This document shows, piece after piece, positions 3,010 to 17,876 of a DNA stretch of 19,798 nt. Where the stretch lies: the NCBI GenBank assembly GCA_017437705.1, contig JAFRYJ010000134.1, positions 1 through 19,798 on the forward strand. The letters run 5' to 3'. Under the pieces are notes generated by a model. The model did not search any database. It had not been told where the DNA came from and saw nothing but the letters and a program-made list of their open reading frames with translations. How positions within the stretch are numbered: position 1 is the stretch's first letter; every line of letters starts with the position of its first letter. The translations under genes and the position numbers were made by a program. Source of the stretch: Lachnospiraceae bacterium. GTDB lineage: Bacteria; Bacillota_A; Clostridia; Lachnospirales; Lachnospiraceae.

Positions 3010-3396
3010 TCAATCGTCTTCTTCGTCCTCGGATACCTGATCCTCGTCTTCCTCTTCGTCCTCTTCCTCTTCGTATTCGGAGGGCTCTCCCTGATCGTCC
3101 AGATTGATACCCATTATATCCTGGCCGCTGCTGTCGAGGTCTATTGTCACATCTTCCTCATCGTCGATGGCAAGGACCTTTACCTTGCCCTGATATATCT
3201 CCTCAACTGCTGCCGAAAGCGGCTTCATGCTGTCTCCTCCCTCAACGAGAGGCTCGTCGCCGGCTATGATCTGCCTTGCCCTTTTTGCGCACGCTATAAC
3301 GATCGAATACCTGCTGGAAACTACGGGCTCGTCGCCCAGCTCCGTCTCGCTGTTGACCTCTTTCATAAGTTCATTGTATGAAGGATGCATCATCAT
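3010..3396 (-). CDS. rpoZ: DNA-directed RNA polymerase omega subunit with long acidic C-terminal tail
   Basis: The small subunit that helps assemble and stabilise RNA polymerase by clamping beta-prime. The first ~76 residues are a typical omega core: MHPSYNELMKEVNSET, then SSRYSIVIACAKRARQII (conserved helix), then KPLSAAVEEIYQGKV. Residues ~77-128 are an added acidic extension; in the last 25 residues, 19 are Asp or Glu. Most Firmicute omega proteins stop at about 65-80 residues, so this one is long. Three consecutive ATG codons (3396, 3393, 3390) can start it. The first overlaps the gmk TGA, and GGGGAGGAAG lies just upstream. The position after gmk is conserved across Firmicutes. Confidence 0.93.
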   Translation of the reverse strand: MMMHPSYNELMKEVNSETELGDEPVVSSRYSIVIACAKRARQIIAGDEPLVEGGDSMKPLSAAVEEIYQGKVKVLAIDDEEDVTIDLDSSGQDIMGINLDDQGEPSEYEEEEDEEEDEDQVSEDEEDD

Positions 3397-5139: not shown

Positions 5140-6891
5140 ATGGCATTTGACGGGCTTACCGTGAATGAGCTTGCCTTTGAACTGAATAAAGAACTCGAGG
5201 GCGCCCGCATCCAGAAGATCTACCAGCCCGGGGCCGAGGAGCTGCTCCTGGTGCTGAAGGCAGGCGGCAGGACCTTCCGCCTCATGATGTCGGCGGAGCC
5301 CGCCCTCCCGATGATATACTTAAGGGAAGACTCCGGGGAGAACCCGGCCAGCGCTCCCAATTTCTGCATGCTCTTAAGGAAGCATCTGACCGGCGGAAAG
5401 ATCGTATCCATCGAACAGCCGGGTCTGGAGAGGATAATCATCATAAAGATCCTGCACCAGAGTGAGCTGGGTGATGTCTGCGAAAGGCGTCTTTATACGG
5501 AGCTGATGGGAAGGCACAGCAACATCATCCTTACGGACAGCGATGATGTCATCATCGATTCCATAAAGAGGATTCCGCCCTTTGTGAGCACCGTCAGGAC
5601 AGTCCTGCCGGGACACAGGTATTTTATACCCAATACTCAGGACAAGGCCGATCCCCTTGAAACGGACAGGGCCGGCTTTGAGGAAAAGCTCAGAGCCTCG
5701 TCATCCGATACTCAGAAGGCGCTTTATACGTCGTTTACCGGGCTGAGCCCCGTTATCTCCTGGGAGATCTGCCACCGTGCCGGAGTAGATGAAAGGATAC
5801 CATCGGCAGAGCTTTCCTGCGATGATCTCGGGCGCCTTTATACTTCCTTTGCGGCGGTAATGGACGATATGAAGGCCCACCGGTACGACCCCCGCATTTA
5901 CTACGAGAACGGTCTGCCGGCGGAGTATGCCGCGGTGGAGCTCACATCCTACGGCGGTGCCGTTGCAGTCGCCTACGGCAGCATGCCTTCGCTTCTTTAT
6001 GCATATTACAGCGAAAAGGCCCGTGTCCTGAACATGCGCCAGCGTTCACAGGACCTTAGGAATCTGGTTAAGACGGACCTGGAGCGTGCGACCAAAAAGC
6101 TGGACCTTCAGCTGTCACAGCTTGAAGACAGCGAAAAACGGGAAAAGTACAGGATATGGGGAGAGCTTATAACAGCCTACGGCTATTCGGCCGTCCCTGG
6201 CGATACGGTGCTCCGCTGCGAAAATTATTACGACGATAATAAGCCGGTGGATATCCCGCTGAATAAAGACCTTTCCGCCATAGACAACGCCAAAAAATAC
6301 TTCGAGCGTTACAACAAGCTGAAAAGGACCTTCGATTCCCTTACGGTCCAGATCGAAAAGACCCGCCGGGAAAAGGCCCTTCTGGAATCCATACTCCTTT
6401 CCATAGACCTGGCGTCCACATCGGCCGATCTTAAGGATATTAAGGATGAGCTGACAGAGCACGGATATATGAAAAAGCGGCCCGGGAAAAGCAAAAAGGA
6501 AGCGTCGCCCGGGAAGTCCAGGCCCATGCATTTCATGACCGATACGGGTCTCGATATTTATGTTGGGAAGAACAACTATCAGAACGAGGACATAACCTTC
6601 AGGCTTGCCTCCGGTTCGGACTGGTGGTTCCATGCGAAAAACACTCCCGGCTCCCATGTTATCCTGAAATGCGGCAGTGAAATGCCGGATGACCTGGCCT
6701 TCGAGCAGGCTGCCAGGCTGGCCGCACATTTTTCCGACGCAGGAAACGGGACAAAGGCCGAGGTGGATTATACTCAGCGCAAAAACCTTAAAAAGCCGCC
6801 GGAGAGCGCCGCCGGCTTTGTGATATACCATACGAATTATTCCATGACCATCGATACAGATATCAGCGCCATAAAGAAGATCAGCGGATGA
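5140..6891 (+). CDS. rqcH: Rqc2/RqcH homologue, NFACT family (ribosome quality control)
   Basis: Binds stalled 50S-peptidyl-tRNA complexes and recruits alanyl-tRNA to add C-terminal alanine tails that mark nascent chains for degradation (known for Bacillus RqcH). Streptococcal relatives were named fibronectin-binding proteins (FbpA). The 583-residue protein starts MAFDGLT, typical of the family. The NFACT-N region contains FCMLLRKH (75-82) and ELMGRHSNII (about 120-130). A helix-rich, coiled-coil middle spans about 285-430. The NFACT-R domain begins near residue 461 and holds DIYVGKNNYQNE and SGSDWWFHAKNTPGSHVI. The conserved Asp-Arg pair at 97-98 of Bacillus RqcH reads Glu-Arg here (GLER). 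GGAGGA lies 6 bases before the ATG. It is a single-gene transcript. Confidence 0.94.
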   Translation: MAFDGLTVNELAFELNKELEGARIQKIYQPGAEELLLVLKAGGRTFRLMMSAEPALPMIYLREDSGENPASAPNFCMLLRKHLTGGKIVSIEQPGLERIIIIKILHQSELGDVCERRLYTELMGRHSNIILTDSDDVIIDSIKRIPPFVSTVRTVLPGHRYFIPNTQDKADPLETDRAGFEEKLRASSSDTQKALYTSFTGLSPVISWEICHRAGVDERIPSAELSCDDLGRLYTSFAAVMDDMKAHRYDPRIYYENGLPAEYAAVELTSYGGAVAVAYGSMPSLLYAYYSEKARVLNMRQRSQDLRNLVKTDLERATKKLDLQLSQLEDSEKREKYRIWGELITAYGYSAVPGDTVLRCENYYDDNKPVDIPLNKDLSAIDNAKKYFERYNKLKRTFDSLTVQIEKTRREKALLESILLSIDLASTSADLKDIKDELTEHGYMKKRPGKSKKEASPGKSRPMHFMTDTGLDIYVGKNNYQNEDITFRLASGSDWWFHAKNTPGSHVILKCGSEMPDDLAFEQAARLAAHFSDAGNGTKAEVDYTQRKNLKKPPESAAGFVIYHTNYSMTIDTDISAIKKISG

Positions 6892-7059: not shown

Positions 7060-7707
7060 CTATGACGCCTCATAACTCTCGTATTTCATCCTCAGCTTGT
7101 CTGCCACAACGGCAATGAACTCGCTGTTTGTCGGCCTCTGTCTGTCCTCCGACGATCTGAAGAACTGCCTGTATGCAGCCTGATCCCGGTTTTCAAAAGC
7201 TTTTCCTATTGCATTTCTGATCCCTCTTTCTACTCTGCTTGCCGTCACATGGTATTTAACGGCAATGTTCGGGTACAGTATCTTCGTTACCGAACCCAGA
7301 TTTTCCCTGTCCAGAACGGACATTACGATCGCATCTCTCAGATAAGCATATCCGCTGATGTGCACAGGCACGCCCAGCCTGTCCAGAACTGCCGTGGTCT
7401 CATCCGCCACGATCCTCTCCCTGCTGAGGGCAGGCCGCTCCTTTCTGTAATAGGGCCGCATCCTCTCCCGGGCCTCCTGCGGGCCGAAGTCTTCCTCCAG
7501 ACACTCGGCCATGACGATTATGAACTTTTCCTCTCCCGTCTCTTCATCAAAGCCCGCCGATATCCTTAACTGAATCGTCTTACTGTTCTTTAATGCCTCA
7601 ACCAAGTCGCAATAATATACGGAAGATACTTCTGTGTTTGCTTTCTTGTCCTCCTGTCCTAGATTTCCCCTGCGTTTTTTAAGGGGATATTGTATATGAT
7701 AGGTCAA
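7060..7707 (-). CDS. Receiver-less Spo0A-like transcription factor (Spo0A C-terminal DNA-binding domain)
   Basis: The C-terminal ~110 residues match the Spo0A DNA-binding effector domain: [20 protein letters not shown], then [15 protein letters not shown], then the recognition helix [17 protein letters not shown], and [16 protein letters not shown] at the end. Normal Spo0A has an N-terminal receiver with a phosphorylated Asp (~265 residues in all). Here the ~100 residues before the domain show no receiver motif (no acidic DD pair, no phospho-acceptor context). They contain instead [26 protein letters not shown], unrecognised here. The position after recN is the normal spo0A locus, but spoIVB is missing. 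The start is unresolved: TTG 7707 is listed; TTG 7779 would run through an inverted repeat and TTG 7605 has no ribosome binding site. A perfect AGGAGG at 7650-7655 has no usual start codon after it. Homology of the C-domain is firm; function is not. Confidence 0.8.
7650..7655 (-). promoter_or_regulatory. Strong ribosome binding site without an adjacent start codon
   Basis: AGGAGG on the minus strand inside the reading frame of the spo0A-like gene. The next ~25 bases (ACAAGAAAGCAAACACAG and on) contain no ATG, GTG or TTG in any frame. The first in-frame TTG is at 7605, over 40 bases away. Either initiation uses a non-standard codon, the start codon has decayed, or the match is chance. Confidence 0.5.
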
Positions 7708-7732: not shown

Positions 7733-7772
7733 AATCGACATTTTTCGCGGAAATATGCGAAAAATGTCGATT
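7733..7772. promoter_or_regulatory. Perfect 16-bp inverted repeat with Spo0A-box-like ends; also terminator-like
   Basis: AATCGACATTTTTCGC (7733-7748) and GCGAAAAATGTCGATT (7757-7772) are exact reverse complements around 8 bases. Each outer end carries TGTCGAT, 6 of 7 bases of the known Spo0A box TGTCGAA, in opposite orientation. It sits 21 bases after recN and just upstream of a candidate promoter of the spo0A-like gene, so it could be an autoregulatory operator. On the minus strand CTTTTT follows the stem, so it could equally be the intrinsic terminator of the recN operon. Confidence 0.75.
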
Positions 7773-7793: not shown

Positions 7794-9476
7794 TCAGTTT
7801 CTTATCTTCTGTTTGAGTTCGTCCGCCAGTTCCTTCATCTCGCCGGCGTTTTTCATTACGGCATCCGTTATCCTGGCTCCTCCCGACATCCTGGCAAGCT
7901 CTTCCACCTGCCCTTCCCTGGAAAGCCTTTCAACGGTCGTAACGGTCCTTTCACCCTCCTGATGCTTCTCTATCCTGAACTGCTCGTCGGCCATCGCCGC
8001 GATCTGGGGCAGATGGGTGATGCATACCACCTGGTTAACGGATCCGATGGCGAACAGCTTTTCCGCCACCTTCTGGGCTGTCCTGCCGCTGATGCCGGTG
8101 TCTATCTCATCAAAGATAAGCGTTCCCACCTCGTCGCCCGACGCCAGCACGGACCTCAGCGCCAGCATGATCCTCGAAAGCTCTCCTCCGGAGGCCACCT
8201 TTGAAAGAGGCTTCAGATCCTCTCCGGGATTTACGGATATCAGGAATGATACGCTGTCCCTTCCCTTTGCGGCCGGTTCCGTTTTTTCAAGCTCTATGCT
8301 GAACCGGGCTGTCAGGAAATTCAGGTCCTTCATGGCTTCCGTCATCAGCTTCTCCAGCTCTTTGGCCTTTTCCCTCCGAATGCCGGACACCGTGTCCGCC
8401 AGGCTCTCATACTCTTTTAAAGCTTCCTTTTCCATGGTCTTAAGCCTTAAAAGCTCCTCCTCCCAGGAATCCAGCCTTTCAAGCTCGGACCTTCTCTCGC
8501 TGCAGTAGGCCTTGATATCCTCAATGGTCCTTCCGTATTTCGATTTGAGCCTGTTTATTACATCCAGCCGCTCCTCTGCTTCTTTAAGGGCCGCCGGATC
8601 GTTCTCCATGTCATCCAGGTATGCGGTCACATCACGCCTTATGCCGGAAAGGATATCGTCGGCGTCCATCAGCGCGTCCCTGATCTCCTTAAGGGCTTCG
8701 TCATAGTCCTGTGCATCGGATACGGCGGACAGTGCCCTGCCTGTCATGTCCGATGCTCCGCCGTCGCCGGAGAGCAGGGAAGATGCCTGCTCCATCAGGA
8801 ATCTTATCCTTTCCCCGTGCTCCAGCATCCTGAAGCGCTCTTCAAGGGTGATGTCCTCGCCGTCCTGAAGCTCCGCCGCTTCTATCTCGTTGATCTCGTA
8901 TCTTAAAAGATCCGCCTCCCTGGACCGTTTTTCGGGATCCATATCCATGGCATCAAGCTTTCTGCGGCAATCGGTGTACTTCCGGTAACACCCGGAGAGC
9001 TTTTCCGGAAGATCCCCCAGCTCCTCTCTGGCAAACCTGTCCAGCATCTCGAGCTGCCTGTCCTTTTTCAGCAGGGACTGATGCTCGTGCTGGCCGTGGA
9101 TATCGATCAGCGAAGACGTTATGTCCGTCAGCATTTTTAAAGAGACCGCCTCGCCGTTTATGCGCGATACGGATCTGCCCTGCCTTATATTTCTCGATAT
9201 AAGCAGACAGTCACTGTCGCTTTGAATATCGTATTCCTCAAGCTTCTCCCGCAGGCCTTCGGGCAGTCCGGAAAAAACAAGCTCCACCGCGGCATGGTCG
9301 CTGCCCTTTCTTATGACGTCCTTTGAAACATTACTGCCAAGGGCGGCCGTAACGGCATCGATTATTATGGATTTGCCCGCGCCGGTCTCGCCGGTAAAAA
9401 CGTTAAAACCCGTTCCCGGCTCCAGCGTCAGTTCATCTATAAGTGCAAAATTCTCTACATGTATACTTTCCAGCAT
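7794..9476 (-). CDS. recN: DNA repair protein RecN
   Basis: An SMC-like ATPase that gathers at double-strand breaks and supports RecA-dependent recombination. The 560-residue protein begins [21 protein letters not shown]. Walker A is GETGAGKS (29-36), the ABC signature is ASGGELSR (428-435), Walker B is TLIFDEID (452-459), and the switch-His segment is ITHLPQ (486-491). A long helical, coiled-coil middle lies between. Length is normal. The ATG at 9476 has GGGAGA 5 bases upstream, 48 bases after argR. The argR-recN pairing is conserved in Bacillus and Clostridia, where spoIVB normally follows; here it does not. Confidence 0.97.
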
Positions 9477-17346: not shown

Positions 17347-17511
17347 ATGCAGAAGAATTTTGTAACAGGTTACAACAACGAGTACAGAAAGATCAATGCC
17401 AACAAAGGTCTGTTTGACAGAGGAAGCAGGATCCGTCTTCCGAAGATCATCAAAATGCCTTCAGGTACATTAGTAAGGTTCGTTCGCGAGTCAGGTGCCG
17501 CGGAGAATTGA
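17347..17511 (+). CDS. Small basic protein of unknown function (54 residues)
   Basis: I do not recognise this protein. It reads MQKNFVTGYNNEYRKINA, then NKGLFDRGSRIRLPKIIK, then MPSGTLVRFVRESGAAEN. It is strongly basic (11 Lys or Arg against 4 Asp or Glu) with no signal peptide, membrane segment or cysteine. Support for a real gene: a good ribosome binding site (GAGAGGAG, 8 bases before ATG), a promoter-like pair at 17237-17265, a strong intrinsic terminator 31 bases after the stop, and codon choices resembling those of groEL. It is the only plus-strand gene in this half of the window, so it forms its own transcription unit. A nucleic-acid-binding or ribosome-associated role would fit the charge but is a guess. 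Confidence 0.75.
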   Translation: MQKNFVTGYNNEYRKINANKGLFDRGSRIRLPKIIKMPSGTLVRFVRESGAAEN

Positions 17512-17542
17512 CCTGAAAACGGTTCTGACCGGATCGATAAAA

Positions 17543-17579
17543 CCGGGCGGGGTCATAAACACCCTGCCCGGGTTTTTTT
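17543..17579 (+). terminator. Intrinsic terminator of the small basic protein gene
   Basis: CCGGGCGGGGT (17543-17553) pairs with ACCCTGCCCGG (17561-17571) in an 11-bp stem with one G-U pair and a 7-base loop. Seven T follow (17573-17579). This is the cleanest rho-independent terminator in the window. Confidence 0.93.
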
Positions 17580-17610
17580 AGTGTTATTCCACGATCCCTG
17601 GATCCGTTAA

Positions 17611-17876
17611 TCCACAGTAACTGAGTATTAGTCCTGCAAAAAAACGGCTGCGGTCTTCGAGCATCCACAGCGAACTGGGTATTGGTCCCCCCAATACAAA
17701 AACAGCCTGGTTTTCGTGCATCCACAGCGACCTGAGTATTCGTCCCGAGCAAAATAAAAACAGGCTTCGTATTTCATGCCTCCGCAGCGAAGCGTTTACC
17801 GTCCCGTTTAAATACACAAATGCCTGATTTCGTGCATCCACAGCGTAGCGAGGACCAGCACGAAACCAGGCATTTA
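17611..17876. repeat. Degenerate direct-repeat array, about five units of 53-60 bp
   Basis: Units begin at the word TCCACAGCG or a close variant at 17611, 17664, 17721, 17781 and 17837 (spacings 53, 57, 60 and 56). A unit runs roughly TCCACAGCGA, CTGAGTATT, GTCC, a variable middle, then AATACAAAAACAGGC, TGGTTTTCGTGCA. The second unit also has GTATTGG/CCAATAC as a 7-bp stem. The last two units form the hairpin after groEL. The spacings are not all multiples of three, which argues against a repeated protein. The array fills the gap between the small gene's terminator and groEL. Confidence 0.85.
17818..17875 (-). terminator. Long hairpin after groEL, probable terminator or 3' stabiliser
   Basis: AAATGCCTGATTTCGTGC (17818-17835) and GCACGAAACCAGGCATTT (17858-17875) pair over 18 positions, all Watson-Crick except one that is G-U in the minus-strand transcript, around a 22-base loop. 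It starts 11 bases after the groEL stop. The sequence after it is GTGTATTT, a weak U-tract. It is built from the last two units of the direct-repeat array. Confidence 0.75.

Follow-up and report, generated by a model that had tools for sequence, protein, structure and literature searches.

A Spo0A-like gene lacking a receiver domain behind recN in a Lachnospiraceae lineage, and short Spo0A forms among its relatives

In the stretch of Lachnospiraceae DNA analyzed here (the window; 19,798 nucleotides), the gene behind recN is apparently a real, conserved regulator, a derivative of Spo0A without a receiver domain. Our preferred reading, to which we assign a probability of about 0.55, is that it encodes a Spo0A-derived regulator of ~181 residues in which the lost receiver gave way to a lineage-specific helix-hairpin module, and which is independent of phosphorylation, self-regulating, and employed outside sporulation. 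Spo0A~P is commonly taken as the gate to sporulation. Passages of PMC6136694 (Davidson et al.) present Spo0A as a canonical response regulator, composed of REC and Spo0A_C domains and encoded by all known sporulators, and the relevant part of PMC8340488 uses the presence of spo0A in calling a genome that of a spore-former. Natural receiver-less forms at the spo0A locus decouple having spo0A from having phosphorylation-gated sporulation, and provide natural material on what the Spo0A receiver does. The window lineage would represent a developmental master regulator outliving the loss of its program; more surprising still is the recurrence of receiver loss among Lachnospiraceae with retained sporulation genes.

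The gene, its locus and its N-terminal module

The earlier note on this DNA described a gene at 7060–7707 (minus strand) with a Spo0A effector domain and no receiver, a description that Pfam, AlphaFold2, and Foldseek all bear out. The frame is open as far as 7779, and Spo0A_C is the sole domain recognizable in it by Pfam, NCBIfam, and PDB sequence search (PF08769, E 9.3e-32, residues 129–229 of the 239-aa longest reading). Pfam gives no Response_reg match (PF00072) in the gene product at E ≤ 1, and the NCBIfam Spo0A equivalog, TIGR02875, whose cut-off is 200 bits, gives 124.2 bits over model positions 150–259 only. By sequence, the top-scoring PDB entries are 1fc3 and 1lq1, both Spo0A effector domains. 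The AlphaFold2 model of a 215-aa reading contains no receiver fold, while its effector domain has a pLDDT of about 90 or higher in most blocks, and all 7 Foldseek matches to the PDB at E ≤ 0.001 are Spo0A effector-domain chains, including the 1fc3/1lq1 fold. The recognition-helix core V-E-R-x-I-R is invariant in the 34 proteins of alignments A1 and A3; the helix of the closest relative, described below, has drifted to TGIKVERGIRTAI.

A protein search with the gene product returned 292 proteins at E ≤ 0.001. Nearest among the best 120, which were examined, is P0001, the database entry from the same contig (181 aa), followed by P0002, a receiver-less metagenomic protein of 202 aa with 66% identity over 92%. 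Of the other 118 among these best 120, most align over about one-half to two-thirds of the query, P0077 reaching 90%; a receiver domain is present in 111 of the 118. The RecN query covered 299 genomes of the family of Roseburia inulinivorans (G006), 292 of which gave a match; the nearest genome is G227 (1.5 Mb) at 60% identity, the next standing at 51%. The receiver-less gene recurs at this position in G227, whose contig C39 preserves the order of all 19 window genes that were tested; apart from RecN, ArgR, and Spo0A_C, the window genes were named by eye. The earlier note had allowed that an assembly or sequencing deletion might have removed the receiver, as a single metagenome contig could suggest. 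Since P0002 and G227 share the receiver-less architecture, this is no assembly artifact; we regard such a deletion as refuted in substance and extremely improbable. No viral copy of the gene was confirmed among 600 pattern matches on viral contigs, and the window holds no Rfam element at the gathering threshold.

The neighborhood is altered as well. Full-length Lachnospiraceae loci usually read argR-recN-spoIVB-spo0A-glgA; the window locus lacks both spoIVB, which usually separates recN from spo0A, and glgA, which usually follows spo0A, and has the rqcH-like gene instead (Table 1). As stated in the earlier note, recN lies directly upstream: it ends 86 bases from 7707, the 5′ end proposed there, and so leaves no room for a receiver of ~120 residues. 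Elsewhere in the window, from the asp23-like gene to groL (17450–17841, minus strand), open frames carry an imperfectly repeated motif, ..TNTQ.AVDAR.P.., which may be a short array of direct repeats in intergenic DNA.

Table 1. Positions in the window of the receiver-less gene, its parts and its neighbors
Feature	Position	Strand	Basis or remark
Receiver-less Spo0A-like gene, probable extent	7060..7605	-	TTG start 7605-7603, 181 aa; ORF list, P0001, codon signature
AGGAGGACAAGAAAGCAAA, Shine-Dalgarno-like leader element	7637..7655	-	Conserved with G227
Alpha-beta-beta module (helix and hairpin) replacing the receiver	7504..7614	-	AlphaFold2; conservation in P0002 and G227; codon pattern
Spo0A_C DNA-binding (effector) domain	7093..7395	-	Pfam PF08769; 1fc3/1lq1 by sequence and fold
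Recognition helix	7195..7239	-	Alignments A1, A3; canonical H replaced by N in the window protein
recN, upstream neighbor	7794..9476	-	RecN-type match; locus comparison
rqcH/NFACT-like gene (named by eye), convergent neighbor	5140..6891	+	ORF list; locus comparison
Palindromic 0A-box core pair TCGACA...TGTCGA, candidate autoregulatory operator	7735..7770	.	Unique in the window and in G227
16-pair hairpin followed by CTTTTT, intrinsic-terminator-like, at the end of recN	7733..7772	-

One element of the earlier description is probably wrong, namely the start at 7707, which appears to lie about 100 bases too far upstream. Compared with G227, the window shows a clear coding signature only from about LVEAL onward, and P0001 begins in the LVEAL region, which together make 7060–7605 the likelier gene; the codon pattern thus points to a coding start that is probably 7605 rather than 7707. 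The G227 counterpart comprises 180 aa when counted from its GTG. Third-position divergence, a mark of coding, becomes clear from about codon 12 past the AGGAGG leader, and its onset sits near the TTG (7605) in the window and near CTG/GTG in G227. The leader, AGGAGG-NN-AAGAAAGCAAA, is common to the window and to locus L038 (about 3321–3339); in the window and G227 it has no ATG, GTG, or TTG at the usual spacing. Short Spo0A genes of other Lachnospiraceae have an ATG at about the position that aligns with this missing start. A frameshift, or initiation at a non-AUG codon, is a further possibility at the conserved AGGAGG.

In front of the effector domain lies the segment for which the earlier note recognized no family, and which still has no family or fold match by Pfam or Foldseek. 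AlphaFold2 predicts a helix and a hairpin in the 215-aa reading (H32–42, E44–54, E59–68; pLDDT about 67–74), the first three helix residues lying upstream of the preferred start; because only three sequences in the input alignment have the module, we treat this part of the model as a hint. The motif R-I-S-[AS]-G-F-D-E-x-T-G-E-E-[KR]-F precedes the effector domain in the window protein, P0002, and G227. Between the window and G227, codon positions 1/2/3 are identical in 26/31/12 of the module's 40 codons; for the 116 codons of the effector domain the counts are 72/90/42. In the module, 15 of the 21 identical residues are encoded by synonymously differing codons. The linker is under no such constraint (11/4/10 of 23 codons; 4/23 residues identical). 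Synonymous sites are saturated, so that no dN/dS ratio can be obtained, but as far as the codon pattern is a guide, purifying selection is shown for the module and for the effector domain. Profile A2 matches 262 of 397 family genomes, and among the best 150 of these 262 matches G227 alone covers the module (positions 2–197), the other 149 having start positions of at least 24. The N-terminal profile A5 matches 1 of 392 genomes of the order, again G227, and a region-restricted protein search for further members gave the window's own protein only (17 candidates), although this search was weak and missed P0002. The N-terminal segment is conserved in two relatives, P0002 and G227, and is lineage-specific within the sampled genomes.

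Sporulation genes and receiver loss in the Lachnospiraceae

That the lineage may no longer sporulate, as the earlier note supposed, now seems probable. A genome search of G227 finds 1 Spo0A_C gene only, and hence no second, full spo0A in this draft genome, our proxy for the window's own. SpoIVA (TIGR02836) has no match in G227 nor in 4 tested genomes without a Spo0A match, and is present in the other 22 of the 27 genomes tested. SpoIIE (TIGR02865) has no match in G227 either, at a model whose cut-off was reached by 0 of 27 genomes. In G227 the SigG model scores no higher than 132.7 bits, in a frame of 750 aa that is SigA-like by size and score; in 14 other genomes the model gave 406–434 bits in 10 and two partial pieces in G279, with its cut-off of 457 reached by 0 of 15 genomes. 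With no second Spo0A_C gene and no SpoIVA, SpoIIE, or SigG-grade match, G227 looks like a member of a former-spore-former lineage and, unless the draft genome is incomplete, is very probably asporogenous by gene content; from G227 we infer the same for the species of the window. In the part of the study by Browne et al. relevant here, 15 of 1358 genomes keep spo0A yet are classed as former spore-formers (PMC8340488), so the category itself is already known. Genome G018, which has no Spo0A or SpoIVA match but gives a short one for SpoIIE and one of SigG grade, may be an incomplete assembly.

The earlier note also raised the question of other Spo0A_C proteins lacking a receiver. Among the best 150 of the 262 A2 matches, 17 genomes have an open frame of ≤221 aa: G227 and 16 further Lachnospiraceae, which carry a receiver-less Spo0A near glgA (loci L091–L102, L105–L107, and L154). 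These genes, like the candidate 0A palindrome discussed below, are something that note did not foresee. In 15 of the 16, glgA directly adjoins the short gene, and in G275 it lies a few frames further on; within the stretches fetched, SpoIVB is upstream in 4 (G392, G279, G326, G246) and RecN beyond it in 2 (G279, G326). Fifteen of the 16 short genes, together with five database sequences (e.g., P0159), form one clade (support 100/99), nested among the full-length Lachnospiraceae genes in the effector tree. The remaining one, in G284, retains both ends of the receiver and pairs with a full-length gene (98/92), which looks like a second receiver-loss event. Compared with true receivers by hhalign, the short-form N-terminus scores a probability of 95% (E 3.6e-8); on this profile evidence it is a true receiver remnant, β1-α1-β2. 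The model of P0159 has one helix at the N-terminus and no receiver. The 173-aa protein is labeled in the database as "sporulation transcription factor Spo0A [Kineothrix alysoides]". Kineothrix alysoides has been described as spore-forming. Kineothrix-like OTUs are counted among spore-forming families in a passage of PMC9229247.

Most further Spo0A_C matches in these 16 genomes lie in frames of 125–205 aa. Three are longer: G396:C1 (265 aa, 75 bits), in which receiver motifs are seen, G232:C3 (262 aa, 70 bits), and G015:C1 (244 aa), with no receiver in the 70 residues examined. Besides the two weak Spo0A_C matches in frames of 262–265 aa, one of them with receiver motifs, the search turned up no receiver-bearing Spo0A in the 16 genomes. 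Side findings were DBD-only Spo0A_C frames of about 125–205 aa (L138–L152), beside GDP-sugar/glycosyltransferase-like genes (named by eye) in most of these genomes, and three more Spo0A_C proteins whose N-termini look unrelated or whose frame is short: P0004 and P0058, on long separate branches of the effector tree, and L155 (G012:C6), a second copy in G012, which has a 261-aa frame elsewhere.

All 16 short-form genomes have a SpoIVA match. The SpoIIE model scores above 180 bits in 15 of them, below its cut-off and over the C-terminal phosphatase part only (frames of 388–495 aa), versus frames of 621–659 aa in 5 of 6 genomes with full-length Spo0A (the sixth, G269, has a 30.6-bit match only); frame length suggests that SpoIIE was shortened at its N-terminus in parallel in these 15 of 16, including G118, G279, and G326. 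Spo0E-like phosphatases, which act on Spo0A~P, occur in 3 of the 6 full-length genomes versus 0 of the 16 short-form ones (Fisher p 0.013, in a small, hand-picked sample), an absence that fits with lost phosphorylation control. Matches to the model of the spore germination protein GerXC (TIGR02887), all below cut-off, are found in 5 of 6 full-length-Spo0A genomes versus 0 of 16 receiver-less ones. If the receiver-less protein is truly the sole close Spo0A in a clade that keeps sporulation genes, these bacteria would enter sporulation without Spo0A phosphorylation. We entertain, at clearly less than even odds, a broader picture in which the receiver was shed several times in the Lachnospiraceae, a large clade sporulates without Spo0A phosphorylation, and the window lineage made of its copy a non-sporulation regulator with a new dimerization or sensing module and a private 0A palindrome. 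Natural receiver-less or truncated Spo0A proteins are undescribed in the titles and abstract openings searched, a search that lay mostly outside the subscription literature.

A single receiver deletion could underlie both the window gene and the short Spo0A genes, the N-terminal module of the former being a diverged β1-α1-β2 remnant. The two share a neighborhood, MAFFT matches the helix and strand of the window protein to α1-β2 of the short form without gaps, and AU tests do not reject joint monophyly of the short form with the trio of window, P0002, and G227 (p 0.42 for the effector domain, p 0.26 for RecN). Set against this, hhalign finds nothing significant between window-type and short-form N-termini (E 0.021, probability 2%), versus the 95% that the short form reaches with true receivers, and both trees place the window lineage apart. 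In the RecN tree the window and G227 group together (100/99), away from the short-clade genomes included; the tree comprises 4 of the 15 clade genomes and G284, one of nine named RecN loci having dropped out, and is small because only loci with coordinates from the RecN genome search were used. In the effector tree, built from 118 columns and with long branches, the trio forms a separate long branch outside the short clade. We consider a common deletion unlikely, and lean, by a clear margin in odds, toward a receiver loss in the window lineage that was independent of that in the short clade.

A candidate 0A palindrome and the proposed function

The 0A box, TGTCGAA, has TGTCGA as its core (PMC3485338). 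Two such cores, facing each other, lie between recN and the receiver-less gene. The pattern TCGACA-N6..30-TGTCGA occurs at 1 place in the 19.8-kb window, where 0.04 are expected and 7 of 200 shuffles contain at least one, and at 1 place in the 1.5-Mb genome of G227 (C39:11345–11380; the reversed-pattern control gave 4), which is likewise between recN and the receiver-less gene. The whole of G227 holds no further such palindrome, so that no regulon is visible. The cores read TGTCGAT in both genomes and so miss the full 7-base TGTCGAA. In both, the palindrome is the stem of a terminator-like hairpin (−22.5 and −20 kcal/mol) followed by T runs, with loops and flanks that differ between the two. 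A consensus terminator scan of the window gave 19 sites versus 18.8 in shuffles, the hairpin at 7733..7772 having the most pairs.

An upstream scan of 82 loci yielded 61 rows with a placed start, the others being dropped for want of a recognized start, a hit, or sufficient upstream sequence. Of 44 full-length spo0A rows, 38 have a 0A core in the 250 nt upstream, versus 4 of 17 short rows (Fisher p 6e-6, too small a value because the rows are related), or 3 of 15 short rows, including G284, once two genes present twice are dropped; the background is about 0.10 per 250 nt. Cores in 38 of 44 full-length rows make 0A boxes upstream of spo0A look ancestral, and two full-length genes (L077, L087) have the same convergent core pair within that spacing. 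According to passages of PMC3485338, the Spo0A effector domain in isolation needs no phosphorylation to bind 0A boxes, and for the isolated Clostridioides difficile domain the tightest C. difficile DNA tested to that point was the region upstream of spo0A itself. Taken together, the unique palindrome, the cores upstream of full-length spo0A, and the C. difficile binding make autoregulation through the candidate palindrome the best-supported function, by analogy and from sequence, for an element that could also serve as a terminator.

In the mechanism that we propose, the effector domain, unmasked by the loss of the receiver, would bind 0A-type sites without phosphorylation; the N-terminal module would aid dimerization or sense something; and the protein, redeployed outside sporulation, would have its own promoter as a minimum target and would most likely repress it. 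Independence from phosphorylation probably follows from this anatomy together with the published part of the work on isolated effector domains that we draw on (PMC3485338).

Other readings account for some of these features. The gene might be a functionless spo0A remnant that is decaying after the loss of sporulation: G227 is small and without matches to hallmark sporulation genes, and the canonical start codon is missing at a conserved ribosome-binding-like site. Decay would not, however, be expected to leave the frames open, the third codon positions diverged with the first and second kept, the effector-core residues invariant, and the protein conserved across the window, P0002, and G227; the substitution pattern disfavors it, and we regard it as quite improbable. 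A better case can be made that the hairpin is the recN terminator and nothing else, the protein having its sites elsewhere and the shared TGTCGA cores reflecting coincidence or recent ancestry. The hairpins are strong and have T-tracts in both the window and G227, but the palindrome is unique in G227, keeps the same place in both lineages despite differing loops and flanks, and has its precedent in the 0A cores usual upstream of full-length spo0A (38/44 rows); on balance we doubt this account without dismissing it. Nor do we lean toward the module being a ligand or protein sensor that replaces the phosphorylation input, which would make the protein switched rather than constitutive. Constraint on the module matches that on the DNA-binding domain, and the module is lineage-specific within the sample, as a sensor might be; yet it is small, has no fold or family match, and dimerization alone could account for the constraint, which leaves the sensor a minority possibility.

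Relation to known Spo0A forms

The window gene shares with Spo0A (TIGR02875; PF00072 plus PF08769) the effector domain, the V-E-R-x-I-R core, the position after recN, and the 0A cores upstream, but differs from it in lacking the receiver, the phosphorylatable Asp, and the spoIVB and glgA neighbors, and in reaching 124 of the 200 bits. Spo0A is the master regulator of sporulation, whereas in the genome closest to the window the hallmark sporulation genes went unmatched. Like the window protein, the short form in other Lachnospiraceae is a Spo0A_C protein without a receiver; its gene lies near glgA and in two cases right after recN-spoIVB. The short form differs in its β1-α1-β2 remnant, in residing in genomes with SpoIVA and mostly with SpoIIE- and SigG-type matches, and in mostly lacking an upstream 0A core. 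The DBD-only Spo0A_C proteins of L138–L152 are also receiver-less, but they lie at another locus, fall on a separate branch (96/79), and are second copies in short-form genomes. The closest functional parallels are artificial: in the parts of PMC3485338 and PMC4689505 that concern them, the isolated DNA-binding domain and the sad67 allele act without phosphorylation, as we propose for the window protein. Those are laboratory constructs, whereas the window protein would combine a natural loss of the receiver with a new N-terminal module.
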